This document shows, piece by piece, positions 23,169 through 32,678 of a DNA stretch of 64,000 nt. The stretch is from an uncultured bacterium (GTDB lineage: Bacteria > Bacteroidota > Bacteroidia > Chitinophagales > Chitinophagaceae): the NCBI GenBank assembly GCA_903920455.1, contig CAIXLY010000025.1, positions 1 through 64,000 on the forward strand. The letters run 5' to 3'. The translations under genes and the position numbers were made by a program. The stretch's first letter is position 1. Every line of letters starts with the position of its first letter. The notes beneath the pieces were generated by a model. The model was not told the origin of the DNA. It saw only the letters and a list, made by a program, of their open reading frames with translations, and searched no databases.

Positions 23169-23507
23169 ATGAGCAATAGATTTAAACCCAAGTTCAATAT
23201 CAAAAAAGGCGATACCGTTGTGGTAATCTCCGGTGATGACAAGGATACCAAAAAGCCACGCAAAGTGCTTGAAGTATTCCCTGAAAAGTCACGTGTTCTT
23301 GTGGAAGGGGCAAACATTATCACTCGCCACACCAAACCTTCAGCACAGAATACTAAAGGTGGACTTGTAAAAAGAGAAGCTTCTATGCACATCAGCAACG
23401 TAATGCTGTGGGATGAAAAGAAAGAAGTAGCTACTAAGATCACAAGATCTAGGGAGAATGGTAAATTAGTTAGAATATCTAAAAAGTCAGGGGAGGTAAT
23501 TAAATAA
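23169..23507 (+). CDS. rplX: 50S ribosomal protein L24
   Basis: Early 50S assembly initiator. The 112-aa KOW-domain protein has [20 protein letters not shown] and [16 protein letters not shown]. Its TAA stop shares its last base with the rplE ATG (TAATG), and the last codons include GGGGAGG ten bases before that ATG, which may act as a ribosome binding site for rplE. Confidence 0.98.
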
Positions 23508-24450: not shown

Positions 24451-24457
24451 AAGGAGG
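24451..24457 (+). promoter_or_regulatory. Perfect Shine-Dalgarno sequence before rpsH
   Basis: AAGGAGG ends nine bases before the rpsH ATG. Nearly all other genes here lack such a sequence. An upstream TCCC (24437-24440) could pair either with GGGG at 24444-24447 or with the GGGA overlapping the Shine-Dalgarno, and GGGACT occurs twice (24445-24450 and 24456-24461), so the site might switch structure. Confidence 0.75.
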
Positions 24458-30789: not shown

Positions 30790-30797
30790 TACCTTTG
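30790..30797 (+). promoter_or_regulatory. Bacteroidota -7 element TACCTTTG for rpsA
   Basis: Exact TAnnTTTG match in the 135-base gap before rpsA. The -33 position reads TAGG and does not match well. Implies a leader of about 55 bases ending in a strong Shine-Dalgarno. Confidence 0.65.
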
Positions 30798-30840
30798 CCG
30801 TCCCCAAATCAGTCTGACAAAACAGATTGAAATTTAAACA

Positions 30841-30848
30841 AAAGGAGG
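30841..30848 (+). promoter_or_regulatory. Perfect Shine-Dalgarno sequence before rpsA
   Basis: AAAGGAGG is fully complementary to the usual 16S 3' end and lies nine bases before the GTG start. It both decides the start codon and stands out, since most genes in the window have no such signal. Confidence 0.85.
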
Positions 30849-30857
30849 AAATTAATA

Positions 30858-32678
30858 GTGGAAGAAAACAACACACTAGCAAGTCCGTCAACAGTCTCCG
30901 CACACGATGATTTCGATTGGAGCATTGACAAGCGCAACGTTGCCCGTTACAACAACGAAGAGCAACTAAAGTACGATGCCGTTTACGAGGGCACCTTTAA
31001 GCAGATCACCGATGGTGAAATGATTCAAGGAACAGTAGTTGGAGTTACCAAAACCGACGTCGTTATTAACATTGGTTTTAAGAGTGATGGTCTTGTTTCC
31101 TTAAACGAATTCAGGGATCTATCTGGTCTTAAGACTGGTGATGTGGTTGAGGTAATGGTTGTGGAGAAAGAAGACAGGGAAGGGCACTTGCATCTCAGTC
31201 GCAAGCAAGCACGTGTTACACGAGCTTGGGAGCGTATTGTGGACATGCACAAGACTGGCGAAGTCGTTACTGGTCTCGTTACAAGCAAAACAAAAGGTGG
31301 TCTCATTGTTGACATCCTTGGTATGGAAACATTCTTGCCGGGATCTCAAATTGATGTTAAGCCTGTTACAGACTACGATCAATTCGTTGGTAAATCCATG
31401 GAGTTTAAAATTGTGAAGATCAACGAAGCAATTAAAAATGCAGTTGTATCGCACAAGGCACTTATTGAAAGCGATATCGAAGCTCAGCGTGCTGAGATCA
31501 TGGGTAAATTGGAAAAAGGACAAGTACTTGAGGGTACCATCAAGAACATTACTGACTTCGGGGCATTCCTTGATCTTGGTGGTGTAGATGGACTTCTTTA
31601 TATCACTGATATCAGCTGGGGACGTATCAATCATCCATCTGAGGTACTTAAGCTTGACCAAAAGCTCAATGTCGTTGTACTTGATTTCGATGATGAGAAA
31701 CGCAGGATAAGCTTAGGCTTGAAACAATTGACTCCTCATCCTTGGGATACACTTTCTGCAGATATTGTAGAAGGTGCAACTGTAAAGGGTAAGGTGGTAA
31801 ATATCGAAGACTATGGCGCATTCCTTGAAATCACACCTGGTGTAGAGGGACTTGTTCACGTTAGTGAAATCACTTGGGCTAATACTCCGGTGAATGCAAA
31901 AGAGTTCTTCAAATTGGGAGATGATTATGAAGCTAAAGTGGTAACACTCGATAAGGATAGTAGAAAGATGAGTCTCTCTATAAAACAATTGACTTCAGAT
32001 CCTTGGGATATTATAGAAGAAAAATTCCCTGTTGGAAGTCGCCATAATGGACTGGTAAAAAACATTACCCCTTACGGAGTATTTGTTGAGCTTGAGCCAG
32101 GTATTGGCGGTATGATTCACATCAGTGATTTGAGTTGGTTGAAGAGATTCAATCACCCTACTGAGTTTACAAAATCAGGAAGTCATATTGATGTTATCAT
32201 CCTAAATATTGATAAGGAGAATAGGAAACTTCAATTGGGTCATAAGCAACTAGAGGAAGATCCTTGGAACTCTCTTCAGGAAACATTTGCAATTGGTTCA
32301 ATCCACGAAGGAACTGTAGTGAAGAAAGACGAAAAAGGTGCTGTTGTACAGTTGCCTTATGGTCTAGAAGGTTTTGCACCAGCCCGTCATCTTGCAAAAG
32401 AAGATGGAAAAACAGTTGGCGCTGACGAAACTGCCCAATTTATGGTGATCGAATTCGATCGCAATGAAAAAAGGATTGTATTGAGTCATGCACGCATCTG
32501 GGAGCAAGTAATCGTGGATGAGAAAGAAGCAGTAAATAAGGAAAAGAAAGCCGACGCAGCCAAAACTAAAAAAGCTGTGAAGGATATTCAAGGAAAGGTT
32601 GAAAAAACTACACTTGGAGATCTAGGCGTTCTTGCTGAACTCAAAAAGAAAATGGAAGGCGGAGAAGAGCCTAGCTAA
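30858..32678 (+). CDS. rpsA: 30S ribosomal protein S1
   Basis: Binds mRNA and brings it to the 30S subunit. The 606-aa protein has six S1 OB-fold repeats, starting near residues 53, 137, 223, 308, 394 and 480; repeats 3-5 are the most canonical (for example GTIKNITDFGAFLDLGGVDG). An acidic N-terminal segment and a lysine-rich C-terminal tail flank them. It starts with GTG behind a perfect Shine-Dalgarno. In E. coli rpsA lacks a strong one and is autoregulated, so the logic here may differ. A strong terminator follows. Confidence 0.98.
   Translation: MEENNTLASPSTVSAHDDFDWSIDKRNVARYNNEEQLKYDAVYEGTFKQITDGEMIQGTVVGVTKTDVVINIGFKSDGLVSLNEFRDLSGLKTGDVVEVMVVEKEDREGHLHLSRKQARVTRAWERIVDMHKTGEVVTGLVTSKTKGGLIVDILGMETFLPGSQIDVKPVTDYDQFVGKSMEFKIVKINEAIKNAVVSHKALIESDIEAQRAEIMGKLEKGQVLEGTIKNITDFGAFLDLGGVDGLLYITDISWGRINHPSEVLKLDQKLNVVVLDFDDEKRRISLGLKQLTPHPWDTLSADIVEGATVKGKVVNIEDYGAFLEITPGVEGLVHVSEITWANTPVNAKEFFKLGDDYEAKVVTLDKDSRKMSLSIKQLTSDPWDIIEEKFPVGSRHNGLVKNITPYGVFVELEPGIGGMIHISDLSWLKRFNHPTEFTKSGSHIDVIILNIDKENRKLQLGHKQLEEDPWNSLQETFAIGSIHEGTVVKKDEKGAVVQLPYGLEGFAPARHLAKEDGKTVGADETAQFMVIEFDRNEKRIVLSHARIWEQVIVDEKEAVNKEKKADAAKTKKAVKDIQGKVEKTTLGDLGVLAELKKKMEGGEEPS

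Follow-up and report, generated by a model that had tools for sequence, protein, structure and literature searches.

A strong Shine-Dalgarno sequence before a GTG-started rpsA in a genus of Chitinophagaceae

The rpsA start and its genomic background

The window, a stretch of 64,000 nucleotides (contig CAIXLY010000025.1, positions 1 to 64,000) from an uncultured bacterium of the Chitinophagaceae, carries rpsA, the gene for ribosomal protein bS1, a main helper of initiation that is independent of a Shine-Dalgarno (SD) sequence. The features of the locus are listed in Table 1. The gene product was recognised as 30S ribosomal protein S1 (NCBIfam NF004953, 805 bits, cut-off 720). The GTG at 30858 is taken as the start of rpsA because an in-frame TGA lies upstream at 30828, no other possible start occurs from there to codon 55, and the product is bS1. 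Upstream, TACCTTTG matches TAnnTTTG, the -7 promoter box of Bacteroidota; similar boxes stand before rpsA in relatives of the same genus, and the transcript is predicted to start a few nucleotides downstream of it. No Rfam family reached its gathering score in the window, the rpsA leader included (0 matches).

Table 1. Features of the rpsA locus and other strong SD sequences in the window
Feature	Position	Strand	Detail
SD before rplE (uL5, ATG 23507), GGGGAGGT	23490..23497	+	-14.1 kcal/mol
SD before rpsH (uS8, ATG 24467)	24451..24457	+	-11.6 kcal/mol
Match to -7 promoter box, TACCTTTG	30790..30797	+	read from sequence
Hairpin I: TCAGTCTG (30809-30816), loop ACAAAA, CAGATTGA (30823-30830)	30809..30830	+	8/8 pairs
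A-rich linker, hairpin I to SD	30831..30839	+	read from sequence
SD of rpsA, AAAAGGAGG	30840..30848	+	9 bp with 16S tail CCUCCUUUU of genus relative G019
Possible start-codon hairpin II: UAGUG (30856-30860, contains GUG) with CACUA (30874-30878)	30856..30878	+	
rpsA, ribosomal protein bS1, GTG start	30858..32678	+	606 aa

The strong SD and the GTG start claimed for rpsA in an earlier note on this DNA were borne out, with AAAGGAGG (30841-30848) followed by a spacer of 9 nt and then by the sole possible start (30858-30860). The 9-bp pairing is with the 16S tail of G019, AAUACCUCCUUUUU, a genus relative that stands in for the window genome, in which no 16S end was found; the mature 3' end of G019 is a predicted one, and G026 ends identically. 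The energy of SD/anti-SD pairing is -13.0 kcal/mol with this tail (RNAduplex) and -12.2 with a standard tail. Matches to the Rfam 16S model were obtained in 5 of 40 genomes, and the 3' end could be read in three. The 16S of G039 (L130), from a family of the same order, has the tail GGATCATCTCCTTTTT, with a variant anti-SD core (UCUCC).

The genome (2.31 Mb, 106 contigs) shows no general use of SD sequences, so the signal before rpsA is more than would be expected by chance. AAGGAGG followed after 4-10 nt by RTG, a pattern blind to TTG starts and to weaker cores, that of rplE among them, has 61 occurrences, and the reversed pattern has 74. By our own reading about five of the 61 matches lie at the starts of recognisable genes (infB, rpsA, rpsH, murG and probably nuoE), six of the proteins at these sites having been identified with short ORFs left out. 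Among the 74 non-overlapping window ORFs of at least 60 aa, the median SD energy is -3.2, compared with -3.35 for mock sites; five ORFs and five mock sites reach -10 or below, and at -12 or below there are two ORFs (rplE and rpsA) and no mock site. The earlier note had counted rpsA and rpsH as the only two such signals in the 64 kb. There are three, and the one before rplE is stronger than that of rpsA, with rpsH the weakest. In addition, infB, the gene for initiation factor IF2 (L013 1501-1514, G000:C18:13692-13705), starts 4 nt after an AAGGAGG and is a second initiation gene with an SD in this SD-poor genome; its sequence is partial and scores under its NCBIfam cut-off.

Conservation and leader hairpins in the genus

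The genus of the window genome, a group from water and soil, includes Pollutibacter soli JS81 and MAGs from lakes and bays. The 5' end of rpsA is present in 18 of the 25 own or same-genus genomes, the gene being cut off or not found in the remaining seven, and all 18 have AAAAGGAGGA, the GTG and the hairpin. With G312, labelled as the same genus, and L140 and L142, placed in it by 93-94% bS1 identity (the other 19 carry the genus label), SD, GTG and hairpin are found together in 21 of 21 relatives in which the start region of rpsA can be read. The sequence L147 (84% identity, no genus label) falls with the genus in the bS1 tree (support 98) and has an ATG without an SD. Conservation in close relatives, on which the earlier note had made its reading depend, extends to every readable start of the genus and stops short of L147 within the same clade. 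The AAAAGGAGGA block is constant while the neighbouring leader bases and stems vary.

Hairpin I, which precedes the SD, occurs as nine distinct arm pairs in 19 hand-aligned rows (the 18 genus rows and G026 of family f3), all pairs being standard except for one A.C in G019. Over 12 distinct rows 100% of the cells are paired, a value reached by 4 of 500 shuffles, and one pair has changed on both sides; this test, made on 13 rows of near-equal length, is modest when taken alone, and most of the weight is carried by the divergent rows G007, G020 and G026. RNAalifold missed hairpin I on alignment A1 because MAFFT misplaces the divergent rows. With strict filters, a leader model (R1) gave hits in 5 of 396 genomes of the order, all labelled own or same genus, and its match in f3 is weak (E 0.043, with chance-level hits from 0.16).

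Regarding the start codon, hairpin II would include the GUG. Its cells are 97.5% paired and near-invariant. In 3 of 16 distinct rows one UA pair is replaced by CG, two of these rows also having an additional A next to it; the other four pairs show no covariation, a control slid by +3 (2 pairs) reaches an equal score, and the element overlaps codons. The support for this hairpin is weak, and its presence is suggested at most. In all eight leaders folded, RNAfold predicts four or all five of the GGAGG bases to be mostly paired, with partners that vary by leader, an argument against an SD that lies freely open. Pairing between a 5' C-tract and the SD was predicted in L140, L143 and L144 but not in the remaining five, which were likewise folded together with coding sequence, and this claim was dropped.

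Distribution in the family, the order and the class

Among 80 named loci of the family, SD and GTG occur in seven (five genomes already counted, together with L140 and L142); at the other 73 no SD was found at a clear start, the start of L212 being unclear. In 69 of these 73 loci a script that took ATG only placed an ATG 28-50 nt downstream of the -7 box, and the ATG starts rest on our own reading. The leader fold is more stable than that of shuffled sequences (z below -1.5) in 71 of 76 assigned leaders. A stem of 4-8 bp lies 4-13 nt before the start in all 62 distinct short leaders (L147-L219), with 28 distinct stems; when the 3' arms are re-dealt, pairing drops from 100% to a mean of 68% and a maximum of 85%, the observed value being favoured by the choice of the best helix in each leader. 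The hairpin loop contains AAAA in 53 of the 62, compared with 18.3 expected from shuffled loops. A 5' hairpin with an A-rich loop before rpsA is common in the family, and this genus adds the SD and the GTG. The family-wide hairpin is a candidate ribosomal leader in its own right, the Rfam comparison having covered the window alone. One of the loci (L149) comes from a contig titled Williamsia (Actinomycetota), while its rpsA falls among the Chitinophagaceae in the tree; the record looks mislabelled or contaminated.

Such a leader brings to mind the classical autogenous control of rpsA, in which free bS1 would repress the gene by binding the A-rich loop and linker, and the SD would set the strength with which the 30S subunit competes. 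The spread of the A-rich loop through the family, on stems that vary yet remain paired, would fit this, as would the preference of bS1 for U- or AU-rich sites described in passages of PMC10931766. Against it, the same passages report that a canonical SD abolishes S1 autorepression in E. coli, and the role of the 5' hairpin may instead lie in mRNA stability, bS1 binding to it being putative. We consider autogenous control unlikely here. The two leaders belong to the same gene and may be alike in being structured with A- or AU-rich single strands, hairpin I and the A-rich linker being conserved in this genus, but E. coli rpsA, as described in those passages, has no canonical SD and loses control if given one, whereas a canonical SD is present in this genus. 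An rpsA signal opposite to that of E. coli, as the earlier note had it, agrees with that account (PMC10931766).

In the order, 15 genomes of 15 other families were inspected and a strong rpsA SD was found in three (G026, G034 and G038), all with TTG starts. In the other 12 families, which have no SD, the start is TTG in seven, GTG in one and ATG in four by our own reading. The seven TTG families (f2, f5, f9, f10, f12, f13 and f14; L052-L054, L056-L058 and L060) thus appear to start rpsA with this weak codon and without any SD.

For the class Bacteroidia, 99 genomes were drawn and 68 taken, namely all those with a returned locus and one per remaining family (56 families); one of them (G513) was cut off, and 67 were scored. 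The machine scoring, which used a standard 16S tail and picked the best of the candidate starts in real and in mock windows, gave an rpsA SD at -9 or below before an in-frame start in 19 of 67 genomes, compared with 3 of 66 mock windows. Three hits were rejected as false on reading: G482 has AGAGGCC before a GTG and an ATG downstream, G503 has AAGAGGTG 14 nt before the ATG, and the hit in G480 lies inside the coding frame, where an ATG directly follows the in-frame stop. A strong rpsA SD is left in 16 of the 67 genomes, from 10 families: three genomes in f1 (the window's included) and three in f32, two each in f61 and f71, and one each in f59, f38, f74, f23, f60 and f77. The core is GGAGG in six, GGAGA in seven (f61, f32, f23, f60) and AAAGGA only in three (f71, f38), the 10 genomes without GGAGG having been scored with the standard tail. 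The distance from GGAGG to the start is 8-10 nt in f1, f3, f11, f15, f59 and f74. The signal was seen at none of the 73 other named family loci with a clear start; it recurs as a lineage-specific device and is not phylum-wide.

The start codons bear on a simpler account, according to which the SD simply increases the yield of rpsA or marks where a GUG gene begins, with no regulation, there being enough ribosomes with a free tail at any time. An SD could offset a weak start codon, and GTG or TTG does accompany it in this genus, in f3, f11, f15, f32, f59 and f74 and in two other f1 genera. However, non-AUG starts occur without an SD in 8 of the 12 SD-less families of the order (own reading), the SD occurs with ATG in f61, f71, f38, f23, f60 and f77, and the genome has no general SD enrichment, so that we judge this account rather improbable, if still worth serious consideration.

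A tree of 75 bS1 proteins, made by a quick method without bootstrap and with f15, f74, f23, f60 and f77 absent, needs seven changes of SD label, at least four of them forced by well-supported branches; the rpsA SD has been gained or lost several times. The genus is nested in the Chitinophagaceae among SD-less lineages, a position that suggests gain or regain of the SD. It may alternatively have been retained here and lost several times elsewhere, given that two genomes of other genera of the family, outside its main group (G044 and G058), have an rpsA SD with TTG. The recurrence also bears on whether the purine run is read as an SD at all, or is kept for another reason, such as RNA stability or a protein site, or by recent descent. 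The rows of the genus are close relatives and the SD is predicted to be mostly paired, as this last account would have it. Yet AAAAGGAGGA is fixed amid changing leader bases and stems, and strong rpsA SDs recur in other families, exceed the mock windows and require the label changes counted above, all of which makes it highly improbable.

A free anti-SD tail and rpsA

According to passages of McNutt et al. 2023 (PMC9976891), the 16S tail of Flavobacterium johnsoniae ribosomes is held by bS21, bS18 and bS6 and redirected by Tyr54 of bS21, and ribosomes that lack bS21 prefer rpsU. There, an AGGAGGU placed in a tuf reporter gave more than 2-fold more GFP when bS21 was truncated, with no such rise for a weak AGGA; added bS1 hardly changed initiation on rpsU and doubled its amplitude on an SD-less message. 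The autoregulation is said to need an extraordinarily strong SD, in the range of -14 to -21 for rpsU.

We propose that the SD of the rpsA leader is functional and under selection, and that it may direct preferential translation by 30S subunits whose anti-SD is exposed, above all those without bS21, extending the known control of rpsU to a second gene; we see the chances of this as evenly balanced. In complete ribosomes of this genus the anti-SD tail would be tucked into the bS21-bS18-bS6 pocket, as is known for Flavobacterium. A 9-bp SD with a weak GUG would then make rpsA a preferred message of subunits with a free tail, above all newly assembled or worn ones that are bS21-less, and the output of bS1 would rise with the share of incomplete subunits. 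SD-led initiation would need little bS1, so rpsA could be translated even under bS1 shortage. The homeostatic loop under S1 scarcity put forward in the earlier note is compatible with control by a free tail and inseparable from it by sequence data, and the note's idea of an exposed anti-SD fits the published bS21 work, as far as the passages of PMC9976891 go.

The observed basis for control by a free tail is the signal and its conservation across the genus, together with the leader hairpin, a background poor in SD sequences and the conserved Tyr54 of bS21. All 18 members of the genus in which bS21 was inspected, out of 22 with an rpsU match, have Tyr54, as do 11 of 11 other genera checked, and the residue does not single out this genus. 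The proposal is supported by the joint presence of SD, GTG and hairpin in every readable relative, the 9-bp pairing with the G019 tail, recurrence in 16 of 67 class genomes and the shared geometry. Against it stand the energy of -13.0, weaker than the -14 to -21 of rpsU and computed with a different program from that of McNutt et al., so near the border; the fact that the rest of the family does without an SD, none being found at a clear start in 73 named loci including L147; and the predicted pairing of GGAGG in 8 of 8 RNAfold leaders, together with its presence in only 6 of the 16 class genomes.

The locus resembles rpsU autoregulation in F. johnsoniae and other Bacteroidia, as given in passages of PMC9976891, in having a strong SD on a gene for a 30S protein, in a class that hides its anti-SD, in an SD-poor genome and with Tyr54 in bS21. 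It differs in that control would be crossed and not autogenous, and in its GUG start, its leader hairpin, its 9 bp and -13 compared with 9-13 bp and -14 to -21 for rpsU, and the mostly missing strong SD on rpsU itself. Among the other SD-bearing ribosomal protein genes of Bacteroidia in that source, the modes of -8 to -12 are close to the energy of rpsA, and rplE is on the list; rpsA and rpsH, in contrast, are unnamed in the sections compared. A literature search found no report of an rpsA SD in Bacteroidia. PMC9976891 was the only paper to join rpsA, Shine-Dalgarno and Chitinophag-, with rpsA appearing once in its passages, for cloning; rpsA is absent from the passages of PMC10783764 and PMC6847099, and from PMC2864571. 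It is thus new among the named SD genes of Bacteroidia, as far as these passages go, and may be present in the figures of McNutt et al. or Jha et al. 2021. With it, bS1 joins a short list, and if the link to bS21-less subunits is true, a single specialised class of ribosomes governs more than the one part that it lacks.

A broader and more speculative picture, which we think unlikely, is an SD regulon in Bacteroidia for proteins that join the 30S subunit late. Immature subunits, with an anti-SD not yet tucked away by bS21, would selectively translate rpsU, rpsR, rpsB and, in several lineages, also rpsA, and ribosomes still under assembly would thereby request the parts needed for their completion; in this genus the strong signal would have moved from rpsU to rpsA. 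The rpsU SD has a median energy of -15.8 in 29 genomes of other Chitinophagaceae genera, 23 of them at -10 or below, and of -7.6 in 18 genomes of this genus, with two at -10 or below (G014, -16.1, whose rpsA start is beyond the contig end, and G019, -10.8); the genomes compared are the best-scoring 29 of 54 matching ones from other genera and 18 of 22 from the same genus. The Fisher p of 5e-6 for this shift is overstated, because the genus is one clade and represents one event. The sequences indicate that the shift holds only for this genus relative to other genera of the family, and G044 and G058 have the SD on both genes (rpsU -9.1 and -13.6). A class-wide rule by which either rpsU or rpsA carries an SD was rejected: at a cut-off of -9, both genes have one in 8 of 64 genomes, rpsA only in 11, rpsU only in 9 and neither in 36. 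The association between the two is positive, with a Fisher p of 0.02 when the three false rpsA calls are counted as negative and 0.12 before that, relatedness being ignored in both.
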